Shown here piece after piece: positions 16,602 through 39,300 of a stretch of DNA of 64,000 nucleotides. The stretch is taken from assembly GCF_012273515.2 (NCBI RefSeq), contig NZ_CP050975.2, positions 3,224,001 through 3,288,000 on the forward strand, read 5' to 3'. The position numbers were made by a program, and so were the translations under genes. The notes beneath the pieces are model-generated. The model had not been told where the DNA came from. It saw nothing but the letters and a program-made list of their open reading frames with translations, and made no database searches. Within the stretch, counting starts at the first letter, position 1; each line of letters opens with the position of its first letter. This DNA is from Streptomyces sp. RPA4-2. Lineage in GTDB: Bacteria > Actinomycetota > Actinomycetes > Streptomycetales > Streptomycetaceae.

Positions 16602-17810
16602 TCATTCCTCCGTGTGGCGGGGTCCCAGCACCCTGCGGGCCACCCGGCGGGCGGTGCGCATACCCGGGAAGTGGGCGGCCGGCGCGAACTTGAAGCTGTC
16701 GATGGTGACCGTCTCGCGGCTGGTCGGGACGAACCACCCGTCCGGGATGGGCGCTTCCTTGTCACGGAAGTGCGGGTAGCCGAGATAGGCCTTGCGGCTG
16801 CGCGGGTCCACGTGGAGCGCGGGCGCCTTCTTCTTCCTGAGGAACTCCAGGAGGTCGACCAGGAGGTCGGCCCGGCCCAGGCCGGCCAGGTTCACCCGCA
16901 GTCGCTCGTTGACCTTGAGACGGTCGGCGACGCCCTCGGTCCAGTACGCGTCGATCAGTGGCTTGGCGAGCGCGAGCTTGTCGCGTCTGACCTCCTCGTC
17001 GTCCCTGAGGAAGACGGGACCGAACTGCGGGAGCAGGGTGACGAGGAAGGGCCGGACCATCAGGCCGTCGCGGCGCTTGCCCGCGGGCACGTGCTCGGCG
17101 ATCAGCCCCATCAGGGCGCGGGCGGAGTCGAAGCGCAGCCGGTAACTGCCGCTCTTGGTCACGTGCTTGCCGTCCTCGCGGCCGACCAGGTAGTAGCAGT
17201 CGTAGTCGGCGACCACGGAGACGCCGTCGGCACGGAGGTAGGCCTCCATGGTGAACAGGGCGTCCTCGCCGGTCTTCAGCGACTCGTCGAAGTGCATGCC
17301 GTGCCGGGTGAGCAGCTCGCGCCTGAAGAGCTTCTGCGCGCTGAGCGTGAACTTGATCTGCGAGGAGAACACGTCCGTGCGGGGCAGGGTCTTGCCCCAC
17401 ATCGACTTCGGGGCGGAGCGGTTGACCCCGATGACCTTGCCGAGCACGACGTCCGTACCCTGCGCGTCGGCCATGGCGACCATGCGCTCCAGGGCCTCCG
17501 GGCCCAGGTGGTCGTCGGCGTCGAGGAAGAAGACGTAGCGTCCGCGGGCCTTGTCGAGGCCGACGTTGCGCGGACCGCTGGGGCCGCCCGAGTTGGCCTG
17601 CCGGATCACGGTGACCGCCAGGGCCGCGCGCTCCGCGAACTCCTCCAGGTGCTCCCCGGTGCCGTCCATCGACCCGTCGTCGACGGCGATGACCTCGATC
17701 CGGTCGGGACCGAGGGTCTGGTCCTCCACCGACTGCAGACACTTCACCAGGTAAGGCATGGCCTCGTACGCCCCGATGATCACGCTCACATCAGGCTGCG
17801 TCACTGTCAC
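16602..17810 (-). CDS. Family 2 glycosyltransferase (glycopolymer cluster 1)
   Basis: 402 residues. A GT-A domain opens with VSVIIGAYEAMPYL, IAVDDGSMDGTG and NSGGPSGPRN, with the DxD-type motif in FFLDADDHLG. About 200 further residues follow that are shared with the GT2 at 30564-32243, including FRRELL, GEDALFTMEAYLRA and VVADYDCYYLVGREDG. It is expected to add sugars to an undecaprenyl-linked precursor in the cytoplasm. GTG at 17810 has GGGGAAAC ahead. It lies downstream of the CDP-glycerol-type polymerase on the same strand, separated by a strong terminator. Confidence 0.9.
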   Translation of the reverse strand: MTVTQPDVSVIIGAYEAMPYLVKCLQSVEDQTLGPDRIEVIAVDDGSMDGTGEHLEEFAERAALAVTVIRQANSGGPSGPRNVGLDKARGRYVFFLDADDHLGPEALERMVAMADAQGTDVVLGKVIGVNRSAPKSMWGKTLPRTDVFSSQIKFTLSAQKLFRRELLTRHGMHFDESLKTGEDALFTMEAYLRADGVSVVADYDCYYLVGREDGKHVTKSGSYRLRFDSARALMGLIAEHVPAGKRRDGLMVRPFLVTLLPQFGPVFLRDDEEVRRDKLALAKPLIDAYWTEGVADRLKVNERLRVNLAGLGRADLLVDLLEFLRKKKAPALHVDPRSRKAYLGYPHFRDKEAPIPDGWFVPTSRETVTIDSFKFAPAAHFPGMRTARRVARRVLGPRHTEE

Positions 17811-18018: not shown

Positions 18019-20148
18019 TCACCCCTTGACGGCCGCACCGCCCGTCTCGCCCGCGGTGGCGGCCCGCTGACCGGGCACCGCGCCCGCCGGCTCCGCGGCG
18101 GCGGCGGCCGCCGCTCCGGCCGCTTGGCCCTGGTTGCGCACCCGGGACTTCTCCGCCAGGTCACGCACCGCACCGTTGAACTGGTCGATCGACGTCGGCT
18201 CGTCGGGGCCCAGCAGATACCGCTTCAGCTCCCGGCGGTCGGTGGCCAGCGCGTCCGCCGACGGGTCGACGACCCCGGCGAGCAACTCGTCCAGTTCGGC
18301 GGCCGAGTTGGAGAGGATCACGGCGGCGCGCACCGCGGTGTTCTGCCGCTTGAACTCCTCGACGCCCAGCTCCGCGGAGTCCGTGACCGCGTACGGCTTG
18401 CCGCTCGCGATGAAGTCGGAGACCACGCTGGATATGTCCGAGACCATGGCGTCGGAGACGTTGAAGCAGTCGTACAGGCGGGGCTCGGCGCCGGTGATGA
18501 CCCGGTGCTCGGCGCTGCCGAACGAGCGCCAGTAGGCGTCGTTCCACTCGGCGCGCAGCCGGGCGACCTCGGCGTGCGCCGCGAAATCGACCACGCCGTC
18601 ACGGGTGGCCTCGGCGTCGTCGCCGCTCTCGGTGCCACCGGTCAGCTGCTCGATACGGGCCGCGATCCGGGCCAGCTCGGCCACGGCGGCGCTCTGGGCC
18701 GCCGCGTCGCCGGTGAAGCGGGGGTCGGCGGCGCGTTCGGCGGCCGCCTTCTCGACCAGCGCGACGATCCTCTCGTGCGTGGCCTTGGCCTTCGAGCTGC
18801 GGGTGCCGGTGAACGGGTGCGGCTTGTAGAGGACACGGACGGGCGGATCGGCCCGCACCAGACGACGGACGATGTTCTCGCCCGCCAGCAGGATCGAGGT
18901 GTTGCCCGGGTTGTCGTCCCAGCCCTCCCAGGTGGGGGCGTACAGGATCGTCGGGCAGCGTCCGTCGGCGGCGTCGCCGGGAAGTCCGTCCGACGCGCCC
19001 TGCCAGGTCCGGATCGGCGCGAGCTGCGGGCGGCCGACCTCGGCGATGTCGTCGTCACGGACGCCGACATCGGCGATGGCGTAACGGTCACGGCCCGCGC
19101 GGCCGGCGGTCCACACCTCGTCGTACACCTTGCTGAACGGGTTGACGCTGGCGAGCTTGTCGCTGTCGCCGTGTCCGATGAAGACGTGCTTCATGGTGGG
19201 CACGCGCAGCATGTGGATGTTCTTGCCGACGTTCGCCGCGTAGAGCGCGACCCGCACGGTCGACAGGTCCATGTTCATCAGGTGCACCCCTCCGGGCACG
19301 CAGATGATCGGCACCGTGGTGGGTGCCATGCGTTCCAGGACCGACCGCTCACGGAGGATGATCAGCGGCCGGGTGTCCAGCTGCTCCATCGTCTCCAGCC
19401 ACATGTTGACCTGGTACGCGGAGTCCTTGGAGCCCGAGAAGTAGAGCACCGTCTCCGGGCGGTACGCGCGCAGCCAGTCGTCGAGGGCCGCCAGAACCTT
19501 AACGGCGTCCGGCGGGATCCTCCGGCCGCGCACGAACGGGACGAGGGCCACGACGTAACCGAAGGCCAGCAGCAGGGTCACCGCGATGCCCGCGTAGCCA
19601 TAGACGTTGTCGTCGGTCGCCGCGGAGACGAGGAGGCCGGCGACGGCCACCAGGTCGAGGTGGAGCATCTTCTCGGCGGCCCGGGAGACCAGGCGGCGCG
19701 GCGGCGCGTCCGGGATACGGACACGCGGGTCCAGATCGACGTTGCGGGCGGCGATGGGCAGCTTGCGGCGCAGCGCGATCAGCGTGACGAGCGCGCCGTG
19801 CGGTGCCTGGAAGCCGTAGAAGGCCAGGAAGCACGCGATGGCCGCGTTGAAGAGCATGCTGGTGGACAGGTCGAGCCGCGCCAGGAGCAGGACGAGCAGC
19901 AGCTCCCGGATCAGGAACCTGATGGACACACCGGCCCGCACCTTGCTGAGGCGGTTGACCAGATAGCTGCCGCGCCGGTGCAGATAGTGGTCCGCCAGGT
20001 ACGTCACGGCGGCCGCGGCCGCGAAGGCGCCGACGCTCGGCAGGAGCGCGGCGAGCATCAGGCAGGGGAAGCCCAGCATCATGAGGGCCGCCGCCGCCAG
20101 CTCGGCCGCGCTGCCCACCCGGGCAACGCGAATAGCGGTGGAAATCAC
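18019..20148 (-). CDS. CDP-glycerol glycerophosphotransferase family polymerase with N-terminal membrane domain
   Basis: 709 residues. The first ~230 form a membrane domain of about five or six helices, such as LMMLGFPCLMLAALLP and LLLVLLLARLDLS. A GT-B-like domain of the TagF/Tar family follows: YFSGSKDSAYQVNMWLE, HVFIGHGDSDK, LYAPTWEGW, VLYKPHP and the late NVSDAMVSDISSVVSDFIAS. This family links glycerol- or ribitol-phosphate units from CDP-alditol donors onto a wall-polymer primer. The fused membrane part is unusual, since TagF enzymes are normally peripheral. The Ala/Gly-rich tail after about residue 660 is probably disordered. The fused CDP-alditol synthase lies directly upstream. Confidence 0.88.
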   Translation of the reverse strand: MISTAIRVARVGSAAELAAAALMMLGFPCLMLAALLPSVGAFAAAAAVTYLADHYLHRRGSYLVNRLSKVRAGVSIRFLIRELLLVLLLARLDLSTSMLFNAAIACFLAFYGFQAPHGALVTLIALRRKLPIAARNVDLDPRVRIPDAPPRRLVSRAAEKMLHLDLVAVAGLLVSAATDDNVYGYAGIAVTLLLAFGYVVALVPFVRGRRIPPDAVKVLAALDDWLRAYRPETVLYFSGSKDSAYQVNMWLETMEQLDTRPLIILRERSVLERMAPTTVPIICVPGGVHLMNMDLSTVRVALYAANVGKNIHMLRVPTMKHVFIGHGDSDKLASVNPFSKVYDEVWTAGRAGRDRYAIADVGVRDDDIAEVGRPQLAPIRTWQGASDGLPGDAADGRCPTILYAPTWEGWDDNPGNTSILLAGENIVRRLVRADPPVRVLYKPHPFTGTRSSKAKATHERIVALVEKAAAERAADPRFTGDAAAQSAAVAELARIAARIEQLTGGTESGDDAEATRDGVVDFAAHAEVARLRAEWNDAYWRSFGSAEHRVITGAEPRLYDCFNVSDAMVSDISSVVSDFIASGKPYAVTDSAELGVEEFKRQNTAVRAAVILSNSAAELDELLAGVVDPSADALATDRRELKRYLLGPDEPTSIDQFNGAVRDLAEKSRVRNQGQAAGAAAAAAAEPAGAVPGQRAATAGETGGAAVKG

Positions 20149-20315: not shown

Positions 20316-21815
20316 TTATGCCACGCCGTCCTGGCGGTCCAGGACGCTGGCCAGAGCCGCCTCGAAACCGGAGGCGCGGCCCGCGCCCGCCGTCGGGTCC
20401 TGCTGCCGTACGTCGATGACGTGACCGGTGAGTTCGGAGAGCAGCACGTCCAGTGACGTGTGCGCGACGGCCTCGGAGGACAGCAGCGAGCCCGCGGGCT
20501 CCTGACCGAACGCCTTGGTGCGCATGGGGGTCGCGGTGCGCTCGGGGTTGATGCAGTTGACGCGGATGCCGTCGCCGGCCCACTCGTCGGACAGCGCCTG
20601 GGTGAGGTTCACCATGGCGGCCTTGGTGGAGGAGTAGAGGCTGTACTCGGCGCGGCCGCGGGTGTAGCTGCTGGAGGTGTACAGCAGCAGCTGGCCCTTG
20701 GTCTCGGCCAGGTACTTGTACGAGGAGCGGGCGATCTGCACCGGCGCGAGGTAGTTGACCTTCAGCGCTTCCTCGATGGTCGCGTTGTCCGTCTCGGCGA
20801 GCTTGCCGATGCGCAGCACGCCGGCGGTGTTGATCACGTAGTCGATGCGCCCGGTCTCCGCGTACGCCGTGGACAGCGCGTCGTCGACCTCTTCGGGGTT
20901 CTCGACGTGCGTGCCGGTGGTCGAGCGGCCGAGCGCGTAGGTCTTGGCCCCGTAGCCCTCGGCGAGCTCGGCTATGTCCTTGCCGATGCCGTACGAACCG
21001 CCGAAGACCACCACGGTCTTGCCGGTGAGCAGCTCGCGGTAGGCGGCCTCGTCGGCCTGCTCGGGCGCGGCGGTGGAGGCGAGCTGGAAGAGCTTGTCGG
21101 CGATGAAGACGTCGACGGGCTGGGTGACCTTCATGTTGTACTCGTCACCCGCGACGACGTGGATCGGCACGTCCGGCAGGTACCTGAGCACGACCGAGCA
21201 GTCGTCGGTGGCCTGGAAGTTGGGGTCACCGGCCGCGACCTCGTACGCGCGGCGGATCGTGGACAGCTTGAACGCCTGAGGCGTCTGGCCGCGGCGCAGC
21301 CGGGAGCGGTCCGGGATCTCGGTGATGAACTCGCCGTCCTCGCCGTGGGTGCGGGTCACGATGATCGTGTCCGCGGACGGGATGGCGACGTCCACGGCCT
21401 GGAAGCGCTCCAGCGCGGTCACGCAGTCGTCGATCACGCGCTCCGACAGCAGCGGGCGTACGGCGTCGTGGAACAGGACGTTCGCGTCCTCGCCCTCGGC
21501 CAGGCCCTCGCCGAGGGCGGCGATGGCGCGCTCGGTCGTCTCGTTCCGCGTCGAGCCGCCCTCGATCACCTTGGTGACCTTCTTCAGCCCCGCCTTCGCG
21601 ACGATCTTCTCGACGTCCGGGACGTAGCCCGGGGCCATCAGCACGATGATGTCGTCGATCGAGTCGGCCTGCTCGAAGGTGGTCAGCGTGTGCTCGATGA
21701 CCGCCTTGCCGGCGATCTTCAGCAGCTGCTTCGGAATCGACAGACCCACGCGCTGGCCGGTGCCGCCGGCCAGGATCACTGCGGTGGTACGGGGCTTGGC
21801 AAAGTGCTCAGACAC
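20316..21815 (-). CDS. Bifunctional cytidylyltransferase / SDR reductase (CDP-ribitol synthase type)
   Basis: 499 residues from a GTG preceded by AAGGTAGG. Residues 1-230 form an IspD/TarI cytidylyltransferase: VILAGGTGQRVGLSIPKQLL, FHDAVRPLLS and PDRSRLRRGQTPQAFK. Residues 250-499 form a short-chain dehydrogenase: VVVFGGSYGIGKDI, NTAGVL, the catalytic pair in YSLYSSTKAAMVNL, and NCINPERTATPM. The same fusion occurs in Haemophilus Bcs1/Acs1, which reduces ribulose-5-phosphate and makes CDP-ribitol. The adjoining polymerase supports that role. The polyol has not been proven. Confidence 0.88.
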   Translation of the reverse strand: MSEHFAKPRTTAVILAGGTGQRVGLSIPKQLLKIAGKAVIEHTLTTFEQADSIDDIIVLMAPGYVPDVEKIVAKAGLKKVTKVIEGGSTRNETTERAIAALGEGLAEGEDANVLFHDAVRPLLSERVIDDCVTALERFQAVDVAIPSADTIIVTRTHGEDGEFITEIPDRSRLRRGQTPQAFKLSTIRRAYEVAAGDPNFQATDDCSVVLRYLPDVPIHVVAGDEYNMKVTQPVDVFIADKLFQLASTAAPEQADEAAYRELLTGKTVVVFGGSYGIGKDIAELAEGYGAKTYALGRSTTGTHVENPEEVDDALSTAYAETGRIDYVINTAGVLRIGKLAETDNATIEEALKVNYLAPVQIARSSYKYLAETKGQLLLYTSSSYTRGRAEYSLYSSTKAAMVNLTQALSDEWAGDGIRVNCINPERTATPMRTKAFGQEPAGSLLSSEAVAHTSLDVLLSELTGHVIDVRQQDPTAGAGRASGFEAALASVLDRQDGVA

Positions 21816-21860
21816 AGGCGACCTACCTTGGGACGACAGGGAACCCAGGAATGGTCCCAC

Positions 21861-26328: not shown

Positions 26329-26649
26329 TTACTTCGCAGCCGCGGGGATCTCAGTGACCTTGATCGCCGTGTACTGCTGGCGGTGGCCCTGACGACGGCG
26401 GTAGCCGGTCTTGTTCTTGTAGCGAAGGATGTCGATCTTCACACCCTTGTGGTGGTCCACGATCTCGGCCTGGACCTTGATGCCCGCGAGGACCCAGGGG
26501 TCGCTCGTCACGGCTTCGCCGTCGACAACGAGCAGGGTCGAGAGCTCGACCGTGTCGCCAACCTTGGCGGTGGGAATCTTGTCAACCTCAACGATGTCGC
26601 CGACAGCAACCTTGTGCTGGCGACCACCGCTGCGCACGATGGCGTACAC
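26329..26649 (-). CDS. rplU: 50S ribosomal protein bL21
   Basis: 106 residues from a GTG start ([18 protein letters not shown]) with GAGAGA ahead; earlier in-frame codons are leader. The conserved [25 protein letters not shown] C-terminus is intact. It heads the rplU-rpmA-obg transcript. The next gene upstream in many Streptomyces is rne; here a 9.6-kb glycan cluster intervenes. Confidence 0.98.
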
Positions 26650-26986: not shown

Positions 26987-27589
26987 GTGAACTACAGGGT
27001 CCAGCCCAGCGCCCAGGTCGACGAGACCGCCGAGATCGGCGCGGGAAGCAGCGTCTGGGACCTCGCGCAGATCCGTGACGGCGCCCGCCTCGGCGAGGGC
27101 TGTGTGATCGGTCGTGGCGCGTACGTCGGCTCGGGCGTCCGCATGGGCGACAACTGCAAGCTGCAGAACTACGCGCTCGTCTATGAGCCCGCCGAACTCG
27201 GTGACGGTGTCTTCATCGGTCCGGCCGTGGTCCTCACCAACGACCACAACCCCCGCTCCGTGGACCCCGAGGGCAAGCAGAAGCGTGGCGGCGACTGGGA
27301 AGCCGTCGGCGTGAAGATCGCCGACGGCGCCTCGATCGGTGCCCGCGCGGTCTGCGTCGCGCCGATCAGCATCGGCCGCTGGGCCATGGTCGCCGCCGGT
27401 GCCGTCGTCACCAAGGACGTGCCGGACTTCGCCCTCGTCGTCGGCGTTCCCGCGCGACGGGTCGGCTGGGTCGGCAGGGCCGGCGTCAAGCTGGTCGAGC
27501 ACCCGAGCGAGGCCGACGTCTGGGAGTGCCCGCAGACCGGCGGCCTTTACGAGGAGAAGGACGGCACCCTCGTCGAACGGAATGCCTGA
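26987..27589 (+). CDS. WbpD/WlbB-like UDP-amino-sugar-uronate N-acetyltransferase
   Basis: 200 residues from a GTG with AAAGGCAGACAA ahead. A left-handed beta-helix acetyltransferase with hexapeptide repeats (IGAGSSVWDL, IGRGAYVGSGVRMGD, IGPAVVL). The signature LTNDHNPRSVDPEG matches WbpD/WlbB enzymes, which acetylate the 3-amino group of UDP-GlcNAc3NA uronate. It stands alone on the plus strand, while the other three pathway enzymes are on the minus strand of the same cluster. The late WVGRAGVKL segment and CPQTGGLYEEKDG end are typical of this subfamily. Confidence 0.88.
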   Translation: MNYRVQPSAQVDETAEIGAGSSVWDLAQIRDGARLGEGCVIGRGAYVGSGVRMGDNCKLQNYALVYEPAELGDGVFIGPAVVLTNDHNPRSVDPEGKQKRGGDWEAVGVKIADGASIGARAVCVAPISIGRWAMVAAGAVVTKDVPDFALVVGVPARRVGWVGRAGVKLVEHPSEADVWECPQTGGLYEEKDGTLVERNA

Positions 27590-27745
27590 GGCCGGGCGAA
27601 CCGGCTGAACGTCGTCCCGTTCGTCGGGGAAGCGGGCCTTTCCCCTCCCTCCCGGCTCACGGTCGGACGTTCCGGTGGCCGCCGAGCAGCAGCCGGTCGA
27701 CATCCGCGTAGGCAATCGCCGCGTACGACGGTCGAGACCTCCCGC

Positions 27746-29146
27746 TCAGCGGTCCCGACCAGCAGGCCGGTCTTCGGTCCGCGTTCCGGGACGCGGTGGG
27801 CCGGCACGCCGAAGCTCCGTCTCTGTCATCGGAACCGAGGACCAATGACGGTCGACGAGGAGGGGCAGGCCCAGAACAATGGGCGTCCACATCAGGACAC
27901 CGAGACGGTCGGCCTCTTGGACGAGCGGATGGGCCACGACCGCGGACGCTCCCGTGAACGCGGTGGCGAGAGCGAGCAGGCCCAGTCCCTTGCCGTGACG
28001 AGCCAGCGCCCAGGCAGCGAGGGCCATGAGGACCAGAAAATACGGCAGCCCGGCCTGCTGGGCGATCCAGTCCCGCGCGAACCGGACGGCGAGACCCAGC
28101 AGCGCGCTCCAGGGATCGGCGATCTCCGGAGCGTCGAAGTGATGGGTGAAGGTGTCCTGAAGGGTGGCCTGTGAGGAGGCCAGGCCGAGAATCCGTATAG
28201 CCGCGACGACCCCACCGGCTGCCACCGCGGAAGCCGCCGCGAGGACGACCGTACCCCGGTGACGTGAGGGGCGGTTGCGGCACAGTGCCCAGGTCGCGGC
28301 CGCGCCAATGGCCGCCGCCAGCACCAGGGCCGACGAGTAGCGGGTGACCCCGCCGGCCACGTACCCGAGGGCCACCAGGACCGTTCCTTTCACCATGGAC
28401 CGGTGCCTGAGCAACAGCAGACCGCCCCAGAGCACGCACAGAACGCACACCGTGAACAGCCCCTCGCCCAGAGCCTGGGCGCTCCACCAACCGAGCGGTG
28501 TGACAAGGAACGCCACTTGGCCGACTGTCGCGGCCCGCCGGTTCAGCCCCGCACAGCCGAGCAGCCCGAACACGAGCAGCGAGCCCCCCGCAGCCAGGAA
28601 CACTCCCAACAGCCGCATCCCCTTGAGCACCCCGAAGGCCCCGACGAACGGCGCCGCGAGCAGGGGGTAGCCCGGTCGACCGGAGAAAATGGCCTGGTAG
28701 CGCGGGTCACCGGTAGTGATGTCGGGAGCGTCGATCCACCGATTGAGGCAGGACCGTTCGGCACCGGTCCTGAGGGCATGCCGACTCTCGTGGACCATCG
28801 GCTTGAGCTGCTCGTCATGCGCCGCGCGGTCGGCGCGGCTGGCGCAGAAGGCGACGAGCGCCGTGCGATGTGCTTCCTCGCGCGAGGCGCCGAGATACTG
28901 CTCCGCCGCCCGCGCGTACCGGTAGGAATCCGGGAAAAGTGTCCACTGCGGCCCCGCGACGAGCTGGAACACCGCGTACAGCACACAGATCGCCAGCGGC
29001 AGAGCGGACCGACTGCCGCGTACCCGGGCAACGATCCGCGCCGTGGAGGACGCGGTGACGCCGGTGACGGCGGTGAGGACAGCGGGCACGTGAGGATCCT
29101 GAGCAGTGAGCGGCCAACCCCGGCAGCGTGGCCAGGGCCGGATCAT
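27746..29146 (-). CDS. Polytopic membrane protein, GT-C-like glycosyltransferase candidate
   Basis: About 466 residues with some ten hydrophobic helices. The first extracytoplasmic loop carries PDSYRYARAAEQYL, which resembles the acidic loop motif of GT-C mannosyltransferases and arabinosyltransferases. A long loop between residues 75 and 155 contains several cysteines (FCASRAD, CLNRWIDAPD). ATG at 29146 has GGAAG 7 bp ahead, and GTG at 29089 is an alternative. It ends the minus-strand glycan operon after the nucleotide-sugar dehydrogenase. It could be the polymerase or a side-chain transferase. The exact family is not recognised. Confidence 0.65.
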   Translation of the reverse strand: MIRPWPRCRGWPLTAQDPHVPAVLTAVTGVTASSTARIVARVRGSRSALPLAICVLYAVFQLVAGPQWTLFPDSYRYARAAEQYLGASREEAHRTALVAFCASRADRAAHDEQLKPMVHESRHALRTGAERSCLNRWIDAPDITTGDPRYQAIFSGRPGYPLLAAPFVGAFGVLKGMRLLGVFLAAGGSLLVFGLLGCAGLNRRAATVGQVAFLVTPLGWWSAQALGEGLFTVCVLCVLWGGLLLLRHRSMVKGTVLVALGYVAGGVTRYSSALVLAAAIGAAATWALCRNRPSRHRGTVVLAAASAVAAGGVVAAIRILGLASSQATLQDTFTHHFDAPEIADPWSALLGLAVRFARDWIAQQAGLPYFLVLMALAAWALARHGKGLGLLALATAFTGASAVVAHPLVQEADRLGVLMWTPIVLGLPLLVDRHWSSVPMTETELRRAGPPRPGTRTEDRPAGRDR

Positions 29147-29270
29147 ATGACGACTTCCAGGCGGCCCGAGCCGCCGGCCCCAGGAACCTGTTCCGGCGGC
29201 TCTCCCCCTCCGCTTCACTGCATGGGCCCGCCCCGTACGCCCGGACGGGCCCCTGCAGTGCAGGTGTGTG

Positions 29271-30554
29271 TCAGCCGCCGATGACAACCCGGCGGACGCC
29301 CTTCCAGGCCTCCGGGTCGGTCGTACGGCGTCCGTCGACCAGGACCGTGACGTCCGGCAGGTCCGCCGGGACCAGCGTCCGGTACTCGGCGTGGTCGGCC
29401 TGCAGGATCGCCGCGGTGACCTTCTCACCGGCGTGCGGCGGCAGACCGTGCGCCGACAGTTCCTCGGCCGTGTACATCGGGTCCGAGACGAACGGGACGG
29501 CGCCACGGGCCCTGAGCGCCTCGACGGTCGGGAAGACGCCGGAGAAGGCCGTCTCCTTCACGCCGCCGCGGTAGGCCGCGCCCAGCACGAGGACGTTCGC
29601 CCCGGTCAGGTCGCCGTAGGCGGCCGCCAGCAGGTCCACGGCGTACTCCGGCATGGCCGCGTTCGCCTCACGGGCGGAACGGACGACGGTCGCGGACGGG
29701 TCGTTCCACAGGTACATCCGCGGGTAGATCGGGATGCAGTGGCCGCCGACGGCGATGCCCGGCTGGTGGATGTGGCTGTACGGCTGCGAGTTGCAGGCCT
29801 CGATGACCTTCTTCACGTCGATGCCGTTGCTGTCGGCGAAGCGCGCGAACTGGTTGGCCAGGCCGATGTTGACGTCGCGGTACGTGGTCTCGGCGAGCTT
29901 GGCGAGCTCGGAGGCCTCGGCGGTGCCCAGGTCCCAGACGCCGTTCGGCCGCGGCAGGTCGGCGCGCTCGTCGAAGTCGAGCACCCGCTCGTAGAACTCC
30001 ACGCCCCGGGCGGTCGACGCCTCGTCGATGCCGCCGACCAGCTTGGGGTAGCGGCGCAGGTCGGAGAAGACGCGGCCGGTGAGGACCCGCTCCGGCGAGA
30101 AGACCAGGTGGAAGTCCTCCCCCGGGGTCAGGCCCGAGGCCTCGGCCAGCATCGGCGCCCACCGGGTGCGGGTGGTGCCGACCGGCAGGGTGGTCTCGTA
30201 GGAGACGAGCGTGCCCGGCTTGAGGCCCTGGGCGATGGCCTTCGTCGCGGAGTCCATCCAGCCGAAGTCCGGCGTGCCCTCGACGTCGACGAACAGCGGG
30301 ACCACCACGACCACGGCCTCGGACTGGGCGACCGCTTCCGCGGTGTCCGTCGTCGCGCTCAGCAGCCCGGCCTCGACGGCCTGCTTGAGCTTGACGTCCA
30401 GGTCGTGCTCACCGGGGAACGGCTCGATGCCGGCGTTGACCAGCTCGACGACCTTCTCGTTGACGTCCGCCCCGATGACTCGGTGCCCCTTGGACGCGAA
30501 CTGCACGGCCAGCGGGAGCCCGATCTTGCCGAGGGCTACTACACAGATGTTCAT
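29271..30554 (-). CDS. Nucleotide-sugar 6-dehydrogenase (WbpA/WecC type)
   Basis: 427 residues. The NAD-binding N-terminus is MNICVVALGKIGLPLAVQFA. The UDP-glucose/UDP-HexNAc dehydrogenase signatures SYETTLPVGTTRT, FSPERVLTG, ETTYRDVNIGLANQFA and the catalytic Cys in AVGGHCIPIYP are all present. It oxidises the C6 hydroxyl of a UDP-sugar to the uronate. The neighbouring WbpB-, WbpE- and WbpD-like genes point to UDP-GlcNAc rather than UDP-glucose. It starts 9 bp after the GT2 gene in the same operon. Confidence 0.9.
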   Translation of the reverse strand: MNICVVALGKIGLPLAVQFASKGHRVIGADVNEKVVELVNAGIEPFPGEHDLDVKLKQAVEAGLLSATTDTAEAVAQSEAVVVVVPLFVDVEGTPDFGWMDSATKAIAQGLKPGTLVSYETTLPVGTTRTRWAPMLAEASGLTPGEDFHLVFSPERVLTGRVFSDLRRYPKLVGGIDEASTARGVEFYERVLDFDERADLPRPNGVWDLGTAEASELAKLAETTYRDVNIGLANQFARFADSNGIDVKKVIEACNSQPYSHIHQPGIAVGGHCIPIYPRMYLWNDPSATVVRSAREANAAMPEYAVDLLAAAYGDLTGANVLVLGAAYRGGVKETAFSGVFPTVEALRARGAVPFVSDPMYTAEELSAHGLPPHAGEKVTAAILQADHAEYRTLVPADLPDVTVLVDGRRTTDPEAWKGVRRVVIGG

Positions 30555-30563
30555 GGACGGTCG

Positions 30564-32243
30564 CTACTTCCTTTTCGAACGGCTCGTGGGGGAACCGGTC
30601 AGCTTCGGGCCGGCGGATCCGGATTTCAGTCGCCGGGCGAGGGCCGACTTCGCCCGGGAGGCCAATGACGGCTTCGAGGGGTACAGGGGACCCGTGGTGA
30701 TCACCACGCGGCCCTTGGGGTTCACCATCGCCCGCGCGTAGTACGGGGCCTCGTAGGCGCCCCAGCGGCGCGCCAGCGGCATGGGCTTGCCCTTGCCGCG
30801 CACGGGGATCTCGTAGGTCGAACCGGCGACGTCGAGGTAGACCCGTGCGCCCAGTTTGACCGGCCGCCGCTCCAGCGGGATGCGCGCGCGCAGCACCGTG
30901 GCAGCGCCGTCGTCGGTGAGTTCGGTCGTGAACGCGCCCACAGGAGCGGGGAGTTCGTGGCCCTTCGGGAGCTTTCTGGCTTTGGGCTTGTCCGCGGACG
31001 CGGGCATGGCGCCCTGGGCGAGACGCAGGACGGCTCCGTCGACGTCGCCGAGGACCGGCAGCCGGAGGGTGGCCGTGTAGGTGATCCCGTCGCCCTCCTG
31101 CTCCCAGGTGGAGGCGAGCAGTTCGGTGCCCTGCGCGAGACGGCCGGGGACGGCCTCCCCTACGAGCTCGTAGCAACGGTCGGACAGGCCGATGCGGGGA
31201 TCGCGGAAGCCCGGGTAGCGGGCGTAGGCGCGCTCGCCCTCGACGACGAACGGCGGTGCCCCGTTCGCCTTCTCCGCGGTGATCGCCTCGGACAGCTCGT
31301 CGACCGCGCCGGCCTGGGCCAGGCAGATGCGCACCCGGCGCTTGACGTCCATGGCGTCACGAATGCCGTCGGTCAAGTAGGCGTCGGCGAGCCGTGCGAC
31401 GCCCGCGCAGAGCTCACGCTGGAGCTCACGGTCGAGCACGGGGAAGTCGTCCTGGACGAGCTTGGCCACTTCCCAGGTGAAGTGCCGGCGCAGTACGGCG
31501 TCGCGCTCGGGGCCCGCCTCGAGGAGACCGGCCGTGAAATCCATGATCTCCACGGCGCACCGCAGCCGCGCCAGGTGGTCGGCGCGGTAGGTGATGTTGC
31601 TGGCGTCGCCCCGCTTCACCGCGTAGTAGCAGGTGTAGTCGGCCACCACGGAGATCTTCCGCGCACGCACGCAGGCCTCGATGGTGAACGGCTGGTCACT
31701 GCCCACGGGCAGGTGCTCGGGGAAGCGCAGCTTGTGCTGTTCGACCATGTCGCGCCGGAACAGTTTGGTGTTGGCGAGAGTCCACGGCAGGGCGGAGTCC
31801 GTGAGGCCTACGTCCGGGTTGTTCTCCTTGTAGAGAGCCTGGTGGACGTACCGGCCGTTCGTGCCGACCATCTTGCCGACGACGACGTCGGAGCCGTGCT
31901 CGTCGGCGCAGGCCACCATGCGCTCCAGCGCTTCCTCGCCGAGGTAGTCGTCGGAGCCGATGAAGTAGACGTAGCGGCCCGTGGCGATGTCCAGCGCGCG
32001 GTTGCTGGGGGTGGCCGGACCACCGGAGTTGGCCTGGTGAAGCACCTTGACGGTGCCCGGGTACCGCTCCGCGAAGCGGTCGAGTTCGGCACCGCTGTCG
32101 TCGGTGGAGCCGTCGTCGACCGCGACGATCTCCAGCCTCTCCCGGCCGATGCTCTGCCCGATCAGGGAGTTCAGGCACTCCGTCAGATAGGGCATGGTGT
32201 TGTAGACCGCGACGACGACGCTGACGTCGGGTGTGCCACTCAT
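30564..32243 (-). CDS. Family 2 glycosyltransferase with C-terminal extension (glycan cluster 2)
   Basis: 559 residues. ATG forms an ATGA overlap with the GT4 stop and has GGAGG 7 bp ahead. The N-terminal GT-A domain reads VSVVVAVYNTMPYLTECLNS, VAVDDGSTDDSG, NSGGPATPSN and FIGSDDYLGEEALER. It is plainly paralogous to the GT2 at 16602-17810 through LFRRDM, DQPFTIEACVRA and VVADYTCYYAVKRGDA. Unlike that protein it has about 150 extra residues at the C-terminus with beta-rich sequence and a basic end (SGSAGPKLTGSPTSRSKRK). It probably adds a repeat-unit sugar at the inner membrane face. Confidence 0.9.
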   Translation of the reverse strand: MSGTPDVSVVVAVYNTMPYLTECLNSLIGQSIGRERLEIVAVDDGSTDDSGAELDRFAERYPGTVKVLHQANSGGPATPSNRALDIATGRYVYFIGSDDYLGEEALERMVACADEHGSDVVVGKMVGTNGRYVHQALYKENNPDVGLTDSALPWTLANTKLFRRDMVEQHKLRFPEHLPVGSDQPFTIEACVRARKISVVADYTCYYAVKRGDASNITYRADHLARLRCAVEIMDFTAGLLEAGPERDAVLRRHFTWEVAKLVQDDFPVLDRELQRELCAGVARLADAYLTDGIRDAMDVKRRVRICLAQAGAVDELSEAITAEKANGAPPFVVEGERAYARYPGFRDPRIGLSDRCYELVGEAVPGRLAQGTELLASTWEQEGDGITYTATLRLPVLGDVDGAVLRLAQGAMPASADKPKARKLPKGHELPAPVGAFTTELTDDGAATVLRARIPLERRPVKLGARVYLDVAGSTYEIPVRGKGKPMPLARRWGAYEAPYYARAMVNPKGRVVITTGPLYPSKPSLASRAKSALARRLKSGSAGPKLTGSPTSRSKRK

Positions 32244-33823
32244 GTCCGTGCCTCCACCGGTCTCTGTTCGGCCGTCTGCCGGGCCCCGCTTCCGGGCAGC
32301 AGCCCGCTGTAGACCTCGTCCAGCACGTCGGCCTGAGCCTCCCAGGTCCACTGGTCGAGGAGTCCCGGCTTGTCGTAGACGCTCCGGTAGCGCTCGGCGT
32401 CGCCCAGAACGGACTTCACCGCGCGGACGTAGTCCTCCACGTCCTCGGCCCGGAACACCTCGCCCTGGCCGGTCTGCTCGACCATGGAACCCATCGTCTT
32501 CACATCGCTGACCACCAGCGGCAGCCGGGCGTGGGAGTACTCGAAGAACTTGGTGATGAGCGCGATCTCGTGGTTCGGCCAGTGGTGGATCGGGATGACC
32601 CCGAGATCCGCTGCCGCGAGGAAACGCACCACCTGGTAGTGCGGCACGTACGGCACGATGTGCAGCCGGTCGTCCACCCCCAGCTCCTCCGCCCGCGCCC
32701 GAAGGGCCCGCATGTACTCGGAGTCCGTGTTGAGCACGACGAACGCGGTGTGCACGTCGGGCAGTTGCGGCAGCGACTCGACCATGGTGTCGAGGCCGCG
32801 CTGATGGGCGGCGGCACCGCTGTAGACGGTGAGGGGCACGTCGTGCCCGATGCCGCACAGCTCCCGCAGATCCGGAACGGGCTCGGCCGCCTGCTCCGGC
32901 GAGACCTCGGCGTCAGGAGCATTGAGGACGACGGTGGGGCGGGCCTTGAGGCCGTGCCGCTCCTGGAGCATCCCGGCAAGAGTGTCCGAGACCGTCGTCA
33001 CGGCGTCGGCGTGCCGCGAGTACTCCAGTTCGTGCGCGCACTGGGCGACGTGCCAGCGCGGGTGCGGGCTCCACGGCTTGATTCCGGGCAGGAACTCGTG
33101 GGCGTCCCAAACGAGCTTGACCTTCTGCCCCTTGGCGCGGGCGCGCAGCGTGGCGCGGGCTCCGACACCCAGCATGCGGAAGTCGTTGGCGTGGACGAGG
33201 TCGGGCTTGAGCTCGTCGATGACCTTGCCGTACGCGAGCTCGAAGTCCCAGAGATGGGGATCGAGCCTGCGCCAGGCACGGGTTCCCATGGTCTTCCGCC
33301 AGAAGGCGGTGGTGAACCTGTCCAGCGCGGAGTCCATGTCCTTGCGCCGCTTCTCCAGCGCCATGGTGCTGCGGTGGCGCAGTTTCACCCAGGAGTACAG
33401 GAAACGGGCCAGGAAGCGGGGCGCCACGAGCCTCAGCCGACCGAGGGCCGAACCCTCCTGCTTGGCAAGGATCAGCCGTACGTTGAGGTCGGCACGCCGG
33501 GCCTTGAGCTTCTGGCGCCGGTACGCGGCCAGCGGACCGGGCCGGTAGGCCAGCGGGGAACGCAGTACGGCACGCCGGTACTCGTGGCGCCGACGGGACA
33601 TCGGGCCAGGTACCGGCAGGAGACGGATCTGGGCGTCACCGATCTGCCAGGTCTGCTCCTTCTTCCCCTTGGCCTTGCCGAGCAGTACGACGTCCCAGCC
33701 CGCCTCGGCGGCCGACCTGGCCTCCTTCTGGACACGCGAGTCGCCGTTCACCCCGTTGTCGACGAGCATCACGATCCGCCCGCGCACGGGCCGGTCCGCC
33801 GACGTGTTGTTCTCAACTGCCAT
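32240..33823 (-). CDS. Family 4 glycosyltransferase
   Basis: 527 residues. A GT-B enzyme: the N-terminal domain has RIVMLVDNGVNGDSRVQKEA and DLVHANDFRMLGVGA. The C-terminal donor domain has LTVYSGAAAHQRGLDTMVES, VPYVPHYQVVRFLAAADLGV and ALITKFFEYSHARLPLVVSD. The last corresponds to the E-x7-E region of GT4, here with Lys-Phe-Phe-Glu. The ATG at 33823 overlaps the end of the oxidoreductase gene by 11 bp and has GGAGG 12 bp upstream. The middle of the protein carries a Lys/Arg-rich insertion (AYRRQKLKARRADLNVR). The acceptor is probably the lipid-linked repeat unit. Confidence 0.88.
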   Translation of the reverse strand: MAVENNTSADRPVRGRIVMLVDNGVNGDSRVQKEARSAAEAGWDVVLLGKAKGKKEQTWQIGDAQIRLLPVPGPMSRRRHEYRRAVLRSPLAYRPGPLAAYRRQKLKARRADLNVRLILAKQEGSALGRLRLVAPRFLARFLYSWVKLRHRSTMALEKRRKDMDSALDRFTTAFWRKTMGTRAWRRLDPHLWDFELAYGKVIDELKPDLVHANDFRMLGVGARATLRARAKGQKVKLVWDAHEFLPGIKPWSPHPRWHVAQCAHELEYSRHADAVTTVSDTLAGMLQERHGLKARPTVVLNAPDAEVSPEQAAEPVPDLRELCGIGHDVPLTVYSGAAAHQRGLDTMVESLPQLPDVHTAFVVLNTDSEYMRALRARAEELGVDDRLHIVPYVPHYQVVRFLAAADLGVIPIHHWPNHEIALITKFFEYSHARLPLVVSDVKTMGSMVEQTGQGEVFRAEDVEDYVRAVKSVLGDAERYRSVYDKPGLLDQWTWEAQADVLDEVYSGLLPGSGARQTAEQRPVEART

Positions 33824-34838
33824 GGATGGCCAGGTCCTCCGAAAGAAGCGAAACACTGCGGTTGTCCAGCGCCGACTCGAGCACAGCAGCCGCCACCTCC
33901 ACCGTCCGCGTGCCCTGACGCAGGGTGCAGATGTCGGCGGGCTTGCCGAGCACGGCGTCGCGGAACAGCTCGTGTTCGACGAGGAGCGGCTCGCGCTTCG
34001 GGATGGCGTAACGGATCATGTCGCCCTCGGAGACGCCACGGAAGGCCTGAAGGGCCTCCCATTCCGTCGCCATGGCGGAGTTGGAGTGGAACGTCAGGTC
34101 GGCGGTGAGGGTGTCGGCGATGAAGCAGCCGCGCTCGCCGGTGACCGAGGTGAAGCGCTCCTTGAGCGGGCTCAGCCAGTTGACCAGGTGGTTGACCATC
34201 GTGCCGTCGTCGAGGCGGCCGACGGCGGAGACCATGTCCTCGTGCTCGCGGCCGCTCTTGGAGACGGTGTGCGCGGCGATGGAGACGTACTCGCGCCCGG
34301 TCACCCAGCCGGTGAGGTCGATGTCGTGGGTGGCGAGGTCCTTGACCACGCCGACGTCCGCGATGCGGTGCGGGAAGGGACCCTGGCGGCGGGTGACGAC
34401 CTGGTAGACGTCACCGAGCTCGCCGGCCTCCAGCCGGGCGCGCAGCGAGCGCAGCGCCGGGTTGCACCGCTCGATGTGGCCGACACCGGCGACCAGGCCG
34501 CGCGACTCGAACGCCTCGACGAGACGGTGCGCGCCCTCCACGGTGTCGGCGACGGGCTTCTCGATCAGCGCGCAGACACCGGCCTCGGCGAGCTGCATGC
34601 CGACCGGCTCGTGCAGTGCCGTGGGGCAGGCCACGACGGCGTAGTCGATGCCGAGGCCGATGAGCTGCTCGACGGTGTCGAGGATCGGCACGCCCTGGGC
34701 GGCGCCGAACTTGTCGCCCATCGGGTCGACGACGGCGACGAAGTCGACGCCCTCCAGCCCGGACAGGACGCGGGCGTGGTGACGCCCCATGGAACCAAGG
34801 CCGACGAGTCCGGCCCGCAGGTTGTTGCCACTGCTCAC
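33813..34838 (-). CDS. Gfo/Idh/MocA oxidoreductase (WbpB/WlbA-like)
   Basis: 341 residues. Rossmann fingerprint AGLVGLGSMGRHHARVL, the family EKP motif in ALIEKPVADTVEGAHRL, GVGHIERCNPALRSL and the catalytic-region ATHDIDLTGWVTG. WbpB/WlbA enzymes oxidise C3 of UDP-GlcNAc uronate and feed the aminotransferase. GTG start with a GTGA overlap to the DegT-type gene directly upstream, exactly the pairing expected for the coupled oxidase/aminotransferase step. Confidence 0.88.
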   Translation of the reverse strand: MSSGNNLRAGLVGLGSMGRHHARVLSGLEGVDFVAVVDPMGDKFGAAQGVPILDTVEQLIGLGIDYAVVACPTALHEPVGMQLAEAGVCALIEKPVADTVEGAHRLVEAFESRGLVAGVGHIERCNPALRSLRARLEAGELGDVYQVVTRRQGPFPHRIADVGVVKDLATHDIDLTGWVTGREYVSIAAHTVSKSGREHEDMVSAVGRLDDGTMVNHLVNWLSPLKERFTSVTGERGCFIADTLTADLTFHSNSAMATEWEALQAFRGVSEGDMIRYAIPKREPLLVEHELFRDAVLGKPADICTLRQGTRTVEVAAAVLESALDNRSVSLLSEDLAIHGS

Positions 34839-35950
34839 AGCTGGGCCCCCAATGCGTCCACGGCGGACACGATGCGCTCCAGGTCCCCGGCGGACAGACC
34901 CGGGTGGACGGGGAGCGAGACGACCTCGGCGGCGGCACGCTCCGTCTCCGGCAGGTCCCAGATGCGACCGGCCTTCTGGTCCGGCTCCCAGTACGGCTTC
35001 AGCCGGTGGATCGGCGTCGGGTAGTACACGGCGTTGCCGATGCCTGCCTCGGTCAGCACCGCCATGGCGGCGTCGCGGTCGCCCCGGACACGCACGGTGT
35101 ACTGGTGGAAGACGTGGCGCGCGCCCTCGGCGACGCTCGGCGTGACCACGGACGGCGCGCTGATGTGCTCCGTCAGGTACGCGGCGTTGGCGATGCGCTG
35201 CTCGGTCCAGCCGTTCAGCTTGGCGAGCTGCACCCGGCCAATGGCGGCGGAGACGTCCGTCATACGGACGTTGGCGCCGACGATCTCGTTGGCGTAGCGC
35301 TGCTCCATGCCCTGGTTGCGCAGCAGGCGCAGGGTGCGGGCGATCTCCGCGTCGGCGGTGGTGACCATGCCGCCCTCGAGGCTGTGCATGTTCTTGGTCG
35401 GATAGAAGCTGAACGTTCCCGCGTTGCCGAAGGCGCCGACCGGCGTTCCGTGCAGGGCGGCCGCGTGCGCCTGGCAGGCGTCCTCGACCACGGCGAGTCC
35501 GTGCCGCTCGGCGATCGCCATGATCCGGTCCATGGCGGCGGGGTGGCCGTAGAGGTGGACCGGCATGATCGCGGCGGTGCGCGGCGTGATGGCCGCCTCG
35601 ACCGCCGCCGGGTCCAGACAGAAGCTGTCCGCCTCGATGTCGGCGAAGACCACGTCGGCGCCGACGAGGCGTACCGCGTTGGCGGAGGCCGCGAAGGAGA
35701 ACGACGGCACGATGACCTCGTCGCCCGAGCCGACGCCCAGCGCGAGCAGCGTCAGGTGCAGTGCGGATGTACCGGAGTTGACGGCGACGCAGTGCCGTCC
35801 GTCCACCACGTCCGCGAACTCGGCCTCGAAGGCGGCGACCTCGGGGCCCTGGACGACCCGGCCGCTGCGCAGCACGCGCACCGCGGCGTCGATCTCCTCC
35901 TCGCCGATCACGGGTCTTGCGGCGGATATCAGCTCATGGGCGTCGGTCAT
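34835..35950 (-). CDS. DegT/DnrJ/EryC1/StrS aminotransferase (WbpE-like)
   Basis: 371 residues. PLP fold type I: VNSGTSALHLTLLALGVGSG, VIVPSFSFAASANAV, VHLYGHPAAMDRI, VEDACQAHAA and the PLP-lysine in FSFYPTKNMHSLEGGM. In the context of a WbpB-like oxidoreductase it would aminate C3 of the UDP-uronic acid with glutamate as donor. ATG at 35950 is used because GAGGAGGGG lies at the right distance; ATG at 35956 is too close. It is the first gene of the minus-strand glycan operon. Confidence 0.9.
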   Translation of the reverse strand: MTDAHELISAARPVIGEEEIDAAVRVLRSGRVVQGPEVAAFEAEFADVVDGRHCVAVNSGTSALHLTLLALGVGSGDEVIVPSFSFAASANAVRLVGADVVFADIEADSFCLDPAAVEAAITPRTAAIMPVHLYGHPAAMDRIMAIAERHGLAVVEDACQAHAAALHGTPVGAFGNAGTFSFYPTKNMHSLEGGMVTTADAEIARTLRLLRNQGMEQRYANEIVGANVRMTDVSAAIGRVQLAKLNGWTEQRIANAAYLTEHISAPSVVTPSVAEGARHVFHQYTVRVRGDRDAAMAVLTEAGIGNAVYYPTPIHRLKPYWEPDQKAGRIWDLPETERAAAEVVSLPVHPGLSAGDLERIVSAVDALGAQL

Positions 35951-36355: not shown

Positions 36356-39300
36356 TCAGTCCTCCGTCGTCGCCGAGACGGACGGCGCCGTCTGCTCGGC
36401 GGCCGCCGTGGACTTCTTGACGGCGGTCTTCTTCGCCGTCGCCTTCGTGGCCGTGGCCTTCTTCGTCGCGGTCTTCTTGGCGACGGTCTTCTTGGCCGCC
36501 ACGGCCTTCTTGGCGACGGTCTTCTTCGCCGTCGTCTTCTTGGCGGCCGTCTTGCGCGCGGCCGTCTTCTTGGCCGGGGCCGCAGCCTCGGCGTCCACGC
36601 CGGCGTCGGCCGCCGTGTCGGCCGCCTGGTCGCGCCCGCTCTCGCCGGCCGGCTCAGCCGCCACCGTCGGGACGACCATGACGGCCGCCTCCTCTGACGC
36701 GGTGGGCGCGGTGGCCTTGCGGACGGCGCGCCGACGCGGGCGGGCCGGAGCCGCGCTCTCGGCGGGCACCTCGGCGGGCGCTTCGGCGGCCTGCTCGGCC
36801 GGGGTCTCCGGCGCGGGCGCCGCGACCGGCTCCGTGACCGTGACCGCGGCCTCCTCCGCCGCCTTCGGTGAACCGGCCGGAGCCGACACCTTCCGCGTCG
36901 CACGGCGCCGCGTACGGCCCTTGGGTGCGGCCTCGTCCTCGACGACGGGGGCCGGCGCGGCCTCCGTCACCTCGACGGTCTCGGCCACCGGCGCCTCGAC
37001 CGCGGGGGCCTCGACGACCGGGTCCTCGACCGCGACCGGCTCGGCCTCGGCGGCCTCGCGGGAAGCCCGCTCGGCCCGCTCCTCGCGCCGGCTCCGGGGA
37101 GCGCGCTCCTCGGCCTTCGGCGCACCCGCGGGGGCCGAGGCACGCCGGGTCGCACGGCGCCGCGAACGGCCACGGGACGCGGCGGCCTCCGCCTCGGCGG
37201 CGCTGCTGTAGAACTCCTCGTCGGCCCGGAACTCGGACACGGGCTGCGCCGGCGCGGCGGCCTCGACGGCCACCTCGGCCTCGGACTCGGCCGTCTCCGG
37301 CTCCTCCGCCGCCTCGTACGTCTGCTCGTGGTCGTGGTCGTGCTCGTGCACCTGCTCGGCGCCGCCACGGCCGCGCTTCTTGCGCTTGCCGCCGCCGCCG
37401 ACGGAGGTGGGCTGCTCCATGTGGACGATCACGCCGCGGCCGTTGCAGTGGACGCAGGTCTCGGAGAAGGACTCCAGCAGACCCTGGCCGACCCTCTTGC
37501 GGGTCATCTGGACGAGGCCCAGCGAGGTCACCTCGGCCACCTGGTGCTTCGTACGGTCGCGTCCCAGGCACTCCAGGAGGCGCCGCAGCACCAGGTCCCG
37601 GTTGGACTCCAGGACCATGTCGATGAAGTCGATGACGACGATGCCGCCCAGGTCGCGCAGCCGCAGCTGGCGCACGATCTCCTCGGCCGCCTCCAGGTTG
37701 TTCCTGGTGACGGTCTCCTCGAGGTTGCCGCCCTGGCCGGTGAACTTGCCGGTGTTGACGTCGACCACGACCATCGCCTCGGTCTTGTCGATCACCAGCG
37801 AACCGCCGCTGGGCAGCCAGACCTTGCGGTCCAGCGCCTTCATCAGCTGCTCGTCGATGCGGTACGTCGCGAAGACGTCGACCTCGGAGGTCCACTTCGA
37901 GAGCCGGTCGGTCAGGTCGGGCGCCACGTGCGCCACGTAGCCGTGGATGGTCTCCCACGCCTCGTCGCCACTGACGATGACCTTGGAGAAGTCCTCGTTG
38001 AAGATGTCGCGGACGACGCGGACGGTCATGTCCGGCTCGCCGTAGAGCAGCGTCGGGGCGTTGCCGCTCTTCGCCTTCTTCTGGATGTCCTCCCACTGCG
38101 CCTGCAGACGCTCGACGTCACGGCTCAGCTCGTCCTCGCTCGCGCCCTCGGCGGCGGTGCGCACGATGACGCCCGCGTCCTCGGGGACGATCTTCTTGAG
38201 GATGGTCTTCAGACGCGCGCGCTCGGTGTCGGGCAGCTTGCGGCTGATGCCGGTCATCGAGCCCTCGGGCACGTAGACCAGGTAGCGGCCGGGCAGGGAC
38301 ACCTGGCTGGTGAGGCGGGCGCCCTTGTGGCCGATCGGGTCCTTGGTGACCTGCACGAGGACCGACTGGCCGGACTTCAGGGCGGCCTCGATGCGGCGCG
38401 GCCCGTTGGCCATGCCGAGCGCCTCGAAGTTGACCTCACCGGCGTAGAGGACCGCGTTGCGGCCCTTGCCGATGTCGATGAAGGCGGCCTCCATCGACGG
38501 CAGCACGTTCTGGACCTTGCCCAGGTAGACGTTGCCGACGTACGAGGTCGACTGCTCCTTGTTGACGTAGTGCTCGACGAGCACGTTGTCCTCGAGGACG
38601 CCGATCTGGGTGCGCTCGCCGCTCTGGCGGACGACCATCACGCGCTCGACGGCCTCACGACGGGCCAGGAACTCGGCCTCGGTGATGATCGGAACACGGC
38701 GGCGGCCCTGCTCGCGCCCTTCACGGCGGCGCTGCTTCTTCGCCTCCAGGCGGGTGGAGCCCTTGATGGACTGCACCTCGTCGCTCGGGTGGTCGTCCTT
38801 CTTGCCGCGGGGCTCGCGGACCTTGACGACGGTGCGCTCGGGGTCGTTGTCGGTGGACTCGGCGTCCGTGCCGGAGTCACCGGCGCGACGACGGCGGCGG
38901 CGACGGCGACGGCTGCTGCTGGAGCCGCCCTGCTCCTCGCGCTCGTCCGCGTCCTCGGCGTCCTCGGCGTCCTCGGCCGTCTGCTCGGCGGTGTCCTCGG
39001 AGTCCTGCGCGGCCTGCTCGGCGGCGTACTCGTCGTCACCGGCCTCGCCGTCCGCGTCCGCGGACTCGCCACGGCGACGGCGACGGCCACCACGACGGCG
39101 ACGACGACGCGAACCGGCCGACTCCTCCTCGTCGGACTCGTCACCCTCGACGGCGTCCTCGGCGGACTCGTCGCTCTCCTCCGCCTCGTCGACGTCCTCG
39201 ACGGGTGCGGCCTGTACGGGGGCGGCCACGGGCTCGTCCTCGACGGCCCGGCGGCGACGGCGGCGGCGTCCGCCGGTCGTCTCCTCGGCCGCGGCGACGG

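Follow-up and report, generated by a model that had tools for sequence, protein, structure and literature searches.

The utr locus of Streptomyces griseus, a locus for teichuronic acid (TUA), is located beside the genes for ribosomal proteins L21 and L27, TarIJ and TagF (PMC13274773, Cell 2025). That report presents the utr gene set of related species as the receptor for the antibacterial toxin of a rival, and it reports that the structure of the TUA determines to which Streptomyces strains the umbrella toxin of a rival can bind. When S. griseus clones were selected for resistance to the umbrella toxin of S. coelicolor, utrA-E carried the most prevalent mutations (72%), and deletion of utrC left the carbohydrate signals of the wall strongly diminished or undetected, a result reported for S. 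antibioticus also (PMC13274773). Here we describe a locus in Streptomyces sp. RPA4-2 that appears to be of this type. It lies in a 64,000-nucleotide stretch of DNA (the window; bases 3,224,001-3,288,000 of a genome in one contig, 9,860,181 bases long), where seven genes occupy the interval between rplU and rne.

The S. griseus chain, as determined by nuclear magnetic resonance (NMR) and mass spectrometry (MS), is composed of N-acetylgalactosamine (GalNAc) and 2,3-diacetamido-2,3-dideoxymannuronic acid (ManNAc3NAcA), with alpha-linked GalNAc alternating with the uronic acid. Its reducing-end residue is the gluco sugar, GlcNAc3NAcA, bound to ribitol phosphate (PMC13274773). The S. antibioticus locus is without utrE, utrF and utrH, and NMR revealed a beta-1,4-GlcNAc3NAcA chain on ribitol teichoic acid in this species, while S. 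anulatus is described as being without the epimerase and O-acetyltransferase genes of S. griseus (PMC13274773). For the S. griseus and S. antibioticus loci, the polymers were established by NMR and MS, and the pathway to UDP-GlcNAc3NAcA is a prediction (PMC13274773).

We consider it likely that the interval in the window is a utr locus, that it makes UDP-GlcNAc3NAcA, and that the resulting glycan is attached to wall teichoic acid, taking these three points jointly and judging by sequence and by analogy with the published loci. The window locus is a further example of the published utr system. The first-pass annotation, which had read the interval as a complete gene set for this sugar nucleotide, is therefore right in substance but not new. 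The interval and its borders contain the following genes.

26329-26649: rplU, assigned by sequence without a family search
26987..27589, plus strand (opposite to utrA-D): utrJ, hexapeptide-repeat N-acetyltransferase, assigned by profile comparison with solved structures
27746..29044, minus strand: membrane protein, predicted GT-C glycosyltransferase (modelled stretch; the open reading frame (ORF) runs to 29506, the script start is at 28984, and the start codon is not fixed)
29271..30554, minus strand: utrD, nucleotide-sugar 6-dehydrogenase with N, central and C domains of UDPG_MGDP_dh and the motif AVGGHCIP
30564..32243, minus strand: utrC, GT2 glycosyltransferase with a TarS linker (Glycos_transf_2 and TarS_linker)
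32240..33823, minus strand: GT4w, GT-B glycosyltransferase between utrB and utrC (Glycos_transf_1)
33813..34838, minus strand: utrB, Gfo/Idh/MocA oxidoreductase (GFO_IDH_MocA, Pfam)
34835..35950, minus strand: utrA, DegT-family sugar aminotransferase (DegT_DnrJ_EryC1, Pfam, 414 bits)
36356-40552: rne (RNase_E_G)

Pfam or NCBIfam domains were found for six of the seven genes. Together with the ORFs, they bear out the gene list of the first-pass annotation (a dehydrogenase with GGHC, a Gfo/Idh oxidoreductase, a DegT aminotransferase, an acetyltransferase, a GT2, a GT4 and a membrane protein), and its placement between rplU and rne is also correct. Read from rne on the minus strand, the order is utrA, utrB, GT4w (11-bp overlap), utrC (4-bp overlap), utrD (9-bp gap) and the membrane-protein gene. 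The overlap that had been claimed for utrA and utrB is exactly 4 bp (34835-34838), and utrJ is convergent with the membrane-protein gene and divergent from rplU. Gene calls were made with a simple script that may miss genes. The membrane protein has no match in the Pfam/NCBIfam family search and a coding score of 9.9 (threshold 8), compared with 45.6 to 152 for the other six genes. Despite this weak score, we take the ORF to be a gene because its homologues in six other loci keep many residues.

The identities to S. griseus NCTC13033 (locus L092, continued in L128) are 86% for utrA, 88% for utrB, 65% for utrC, 88% for utrD and 83% for utrJ. In that strain, utrJ is followed by umbA, rplU, obg, TarIJ and TagF, and of these genes only umbA lacks a counterpart in the window. 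A copy of umbA beside the window locus was considered and rejected, as S. griseus UmbA gives only one weak match in the genome, far from the window (E 6.8e-4, 28%).

UtrD matches TIGR03026 with 286.9 bits, over the cut-off of 189.8, and has scores under the cut-offs with NF040825 (244.8 bits), TviB (104.5) and TuaD (77.9). Its best solved relative is the UDP-ManNAcA (UDP-N-acetylmannosaminuronic acid) dehydrogenase 4r16 (254 bits), with Cap5O at 217 and CalS8 at 173 bits. The best chain named UDP-glucose dehydrogenase, 3vtf, reaches 143 bits, so UtrD is not nearest to the family whose resemblance the first-pass annotation had regarded as damaging to its pathway; no chain named WbpA was among the structures compared. 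UtrA aligns with WbpE (3nyu, 299 bits, rank 7) over profile positions 17-368 of 370 and the homology is clear, with higher scores for 7b0d (391 bits) and for 2oga (340 bits), which we take to be DesV. The YPTKN motif of UtrA, which carries the presumed pyridoxal phosphate lysine, is invariant in 11 sequences. The best structure for UtrJ is 3mqg, annotated as an acetyltransferase of lipopolysaccharide biosynthesis and presumably WlbB: the alignment spans profile positions 4-192 of 198 and scores 177 bits, against 105 bits for the next structure, 4mzu.

The UtrB profile scores 98 bits with 7bvj, which we assume to be GnnA, and 71 bits with 3q2k, listed only as an oxidoreductase and presumably WlbA; a single-sequence comparison gives 25 bits with 3o9z, which is named WbpB. 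The best NCBIfam match is the archaeal UDP-GlcNAc 3-dehydrogenase family NF040723 (185.6 bits, under the cut-off of 450; GlcNAc is N-acetylglucosamine). Because UtrB is nearer to 7bvj and to this archaeal family, the enzyme may act on UDP-GlcNAc before C6 oxidation, although it may still work like WbpB. Thus, the assignment to Wbp families that had been proposed holds best for UtrJ, which is nearest 3mqg (177 versus 105 bits), and does not hold in the same way for UtrB, nearest 7bvj, or for UtrA, for which WbpE ranks seventh.

This resemblance of UtrB to NF040723 and 7bvj, along with the preference of UtrD for a UDP-ManNAcA dehydrogenase, would also fit a route like that of GnnA/GnnB, in which the product is the neutral UDP-GlcNAc3NAc and the 6-dehydrogenase serves another sugar such as UDP-ManNAcA or UDP-GlcNAcA. 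However, UtrJ matches 3mqg far over the next acetyltransferase, the genome search turned up no PF02350 2-epimerase as a source of UDP-ManNAc, and the sugars obtained from the orthologous loci are GlcNAc3NAcA and ManNAc3NAcA (PMC13274773). We therefore regard a neutral product as unlikely. The four-step pathway to UDP-GlcNAc3NAcA put forward in the first-pass annotation agrees with the reported GlcNAc3NAcA polymers and with the pathway predicted for the orthologous loci (PMC13274773).

In the pathway that we favor, UtrD would oxidize C6, UtrB and UtrA would oxidize and aminate C3, and UtrJ would acetylate the 3-amino group, for an overall conversion of UDP-GlcNAc to UDP-GlcNAc3NAcA. The TarS-like UtrC would then link a single GlcNAc3NAcA to ribitol-phosphate in the wall teichoic acid, itself made by the products of the neighboring TarIJ and TagF genes. 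GT4w is predicted to be the elongating enzyme, the simplest product being a GlcNAc3NAcA homopolymer, and the GT-C-like membrane protein may attach a side sugar on the outer side of the membrane. The teichuronic-acid-like wall polymer that had been suggested for this strain is supported by the orthologous loci of S. griseus and S. antibioticus, but the chain is expected to be carried on ribitol wall teichoic acid via UtrC and not to occur as a free teichuronic acid.

The gene neighborhood was surveyed in 87 loci, comprising the window, six of 12 fetched loci from the same genus and the best 80 of 190 UtrB relatives (85 are distinct, L037 being the same as L082 and L038 the same as L112). The best 80 UtrB relatives are 83-93% identical, and 78 of them are named Streptomyces. 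All 87 loci carry utrA, utrB, utrC and utrD together, where only the co-occurrence of utrA, utrC and utrD is informative since the loci were fetched with UtrB. This grouping is far from chance. The gene rne is among the two genes called upstream of utrA in 81 of the 87. A single short or unmatched gene precedes utrA in the covered stretch of four loci (L063, L071, L081 and L093), L053 has an unmatched 1067-aa gene at this place, and rne is further away in L048. In this last locus, a second utrC-like gene (4966-6558, plus strand; 33%) and utrE-like genes were called, all between rne and utrA, indicating that the rne side of the utr locus also takes up genes. Outside utrA-D, the gene content of the 87 loci varies. 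The gene rplU was found in 23 of 23 genomes of relatives without utr. Of 343 sampled genomes of the genus, 64 have a relative of utrD at E 1e-100 or better and 40 have one of GT4w at E 1e-60 or better, the latter count taking in paralogues, so the utr cluster is patchy in the genus.

The 87-locus count does not include six loci from other families. Four of these have D, B, A and J side by side (D-B-A-J in L040, L042 and L045; D-J-A-B in L044), which supports the idea that they form one functional set. UtrC has no match in any of the six loci. In the four contiguous loci the set lies beside other genes and probably serves another glycan. Such arrangements could be taken to mean that the window genes make a secreted polysaccharide or a specialized metabolite, particularly as DegT and Gfo/Idh enzymes serve antibiotic sugars too and 2oga, our presumed DesV, outscores WbpE for UtrA. 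We find this highly improbable for the window, where the genes are placed between rne and rplU and beside TarIJ/TagF. In addition, a TarS-type UtrC is present in 87 of 87 loci, and the reported effect of utrC deletion in S. griseus and S. antibioticus is on the wall (PMC13274773).

Whether the sugar is in the gluco or manno form can be addressed through the 2-epimerase. UtrH of S. griseus, which belongs to PF02350 (the UDP-GlcNAc 2-epimerase family, Pfam), has no match in the window genome at E 0.01, whereas all three utrH-bearing relatives match at E <1e-200. Likewise, PF02350 finds nothing in the whole window genome but is positive in 11 of 14 control genomes. Both results are good sequence evidence against a WbpI-type step, and with no 2-epimerase turned up genome-wide, the gluco sugar is expected. 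The earlier expectation of the gluco form, for which only nearby genes had been inspected, is strengthened by this genome-wide search with positive controls. A manno polymer of the S. griseus type was rejected, as the locus has no utrH and no PF02350 member was found in the genome. The genes utrE, utrF, utrG, utrH and utrI were not found in the window interval, to which the search for a 4-epimerase was confined.

How the chain might be elongated was considered from the variable genes. Of the 87 loci, 51 extend as far as utrJ or rplU, a subset in which short clusters are favored. We use GT4w-I for proteins with at least 70% identity to the window GT4w. In eight of the 51 loci, no variable gene other than GT4w-I was called between utrA and utrJ (six of these reach rplU; L052 and L118 were counted up to utrJ only), and one of the eight, from S. 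anulatus NRRL B-2873 (L101), fits the published description of S. anulatus. Another S. anulatus locus (JCM 4721, L114) has utrH and lacks GT4w. GT4w-I is accompanied by the membrane protein in three of the 51 loci, including the window, and by utrI in one (L104, S. clavifer, in the order A B GT4w C D J I). Absence of utrH is linked to GT4w-I (19 of 21 loci versus 13 of 30; Fisher p 9e-4, ignoring kinship and the bias toward short clusters).

The predicted role of GT4w as chain elongator rests on gene content, because no relation to UtrG or UtrF was seen. The model of GT4w (predicted local distance difference test, pLDDT, 75.6) has its best Foldseek matches with sucrose-phosphate synthase, MshA, GlgM and BshA, and the low-confidence model of the membrane protein resembles GT-C glycosyltransferases; the retaining or GT-C nature of several of these structures is our assumption. 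The membrane protein might, though less certainly, decorate the polymer outside the membrane. The simplest chain is a homopolymer, because no 2-epimerase was found in the genome and there is no utrE-type 4-epimerase, utrF or utrG in the locus. On inference from analogy, a chain made only of GlcNAc3NAcA, taken alone, seems to us slightly better than an even bet.

A different chain would retain the pathway and the wall attachment but have GT4w add another, alpha-linked sugar in alternation with GlcNAc3NAcA, with the donor made elsewhere in the genome, much as UtrF is predicted to act with GalNAc in S. griseus. The resemblance of the GT4w model to retaining-type enzymes is in keeping with such a heteropolymer, as are two complete loci (L073 and L084) that carry GT4w-I, a second GT4w paralogue and utrH. 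The S. griseus chain likewise alternates alpha-linked GalNAc with the uronic acid, but S. antibioticus, also without utrE, utrF and utrH, is reported to have a GlcNAc3NAcA homopolymer (PMC13274773). Moreover, the eight loci in which GT4w-I is the sole variable gene show no enzyme for a second donor between utrA and utrJ, although such a donor could be made elsewhere. We consider the heteropolymer possible but rather doubtful.

Several points dampen our confidence in the interpretation as a whole. The sugar and polymer of this strain are predicted from its genes, and the solved structures nearest to UtrB and UtrA are not those of Wbp/Wlb enzymes. Two of the loci from other families do not keep the gene set together: D is ~8.6 kb from B-A-J in L043, and L041 shows A, B and D with no J in the covered stretch. 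A retaining-type GT4w implies alpha links, as opposed to the beta-1,4 links of the S. antibioticus homopolymer, and profile comparison of GT4w with S. griseus UtrG and UtrF gave probabilities of only 4.7 and 0.4, where the alignments are shallow and the absence of a match is weak evidence. Even for the published polymers, NMR alone could not establish a direct link between TUA and teichoic acid, and sizing, diffusion and dephosphorylation data were also needed (PMC13274773).

If the models are taken at face value, the window might specify a third TUA chemotype, not yet described chemically in PMC13274773. This would be a chain of GlcNAc3NAcA only, alpha-linked in contrast to that of S. antibioticus, built by a retaining GT4w that has no recognizable kinship with S. 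griseus UtrG or UtrF and decorated on the surface by the GT-C-like protein, which would alter recognition by the lectin toxins of rivals. We offer this as a speculative and rather improbable proposal. The abbreviated cluster, with no 2-epimerase and one candidate elongating transferase, is convenient for learning which enzyme sets the repeat and linkage. The polymer outcome may be readable from the few genes in the window cluster, whose content gives a testable prediction. If the GT-C gene in such loci truly acts in this way, chains could be altered after export also.

The teichoic acid cluster, which the first-pass annotation had not mentioned, lies beyond obg-rplU, on the opposite side from rne, and the order in the window is TagF, TarIJ, PhoD, obg, rplU, utr genes and rne. 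Its main genes are as follows.

16602..17810, minus strand: second TarS-like GT2 glycosyltransferase, a utrC paralogue (Glycos_transf_2 and TarS_linker)
18019..20148, minus strand: TagF-like glycerophosphotransferase for the teichoic acid backbone (Glyphos_transf, 31.8 bits over a short stretch, cut-off 22.1)
20316..21860, minus strand: TarI-TarJ fusion for wall teichoic acid precursor synthesis (IspD and short-chain dehydrogenase domains)

The TarI-TarJ fusion is 90% identical to the S. griseus copy beside obg, and the TagF-like protein is 69% identical to the covered part of the TarIJ neighbor in that strain (L128). The second TarS-like protein shares 41% identity with UtrC across an alignment of 356 positions (E 5e-89) and is a candidate for putting another sugar on ribitol-phosphate. 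It is adjoined on the opposite strand, near TagF, by a gene for a polysaccharide pyruvyl transferase (15074-16504, plus strand), given which the teichoic acid might carry pyruvate; the fetched loci yielded no strong match to this protein, and few if any of them extend that far. A PhoD-like phosphatase is encoded between obg and TarIJ (22605-24203, minus strand), whereas in S. griseus (L128) TarIJ directly follows obg without PhoD between. No strong match to PhoD came from the fetched loci, although only a few extend that far. The Bacillus PhoD is a teichoic-acid phosphodiesterase, and a teichoic-acid role for the window protein is conceivable. Elsewhere in the window, 44669-46830 encodes a glyoxalase-like protein and an ArsR regulator, along with an ORF (46405-46830) that by eye resembles a low-molecular-weight phosphatase or arsenate reductase, and might be an arsenic resistance group. 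Two tRNA-Ala (GGC) genes are located ~2 kb apart at 1555-1628 and 3624-3697 (minus strand).

The four chemical steps of the window set are common to WbpA-WbpB-WbpE-WbpD of Pseudomonas aeruginosa and Wlb of Bordetella. However, UtrJ, closest to the presumed WlbB structure 3mqg, is the only enzyme of the set whose best solved relative is a Wbp/Wlb protein, no WbpI-type epimerase was found, and the product is expected on teichoic acid rather than on lipopolysaccharide. With TarS of Staphylococcus aureus, UtrC has in common a GT2 domain and a TarS linker domain, but its predicted donor is UDP-GlcNAc3NAcA and the residue that it transfers would prime a chain, whereas TarS leaves a single GlcNAc. 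The S. griseus utr locus shares with the window its chromosomal site (a rne side and a rplU side), orthologues of utrA-D and utrJ, and nearby TarIJ and TagF. The interval in the window is without its utrE (4-epimerase), utrF and utrG (glycosyltransferases), utrH (2-epimerase), utrI (O-acetyltransferase) and umbA, and has GT4w and the GT-C-like membrane protein as its own. The S. antibioticus locus, compared by published gene content only, resembles the window in being without utrE, utrF and utrH but, unlike the window, has utrI and a gene named utrG. The gene content of the S. clavifer locus (L104) fits the description published for S. antibioticus.

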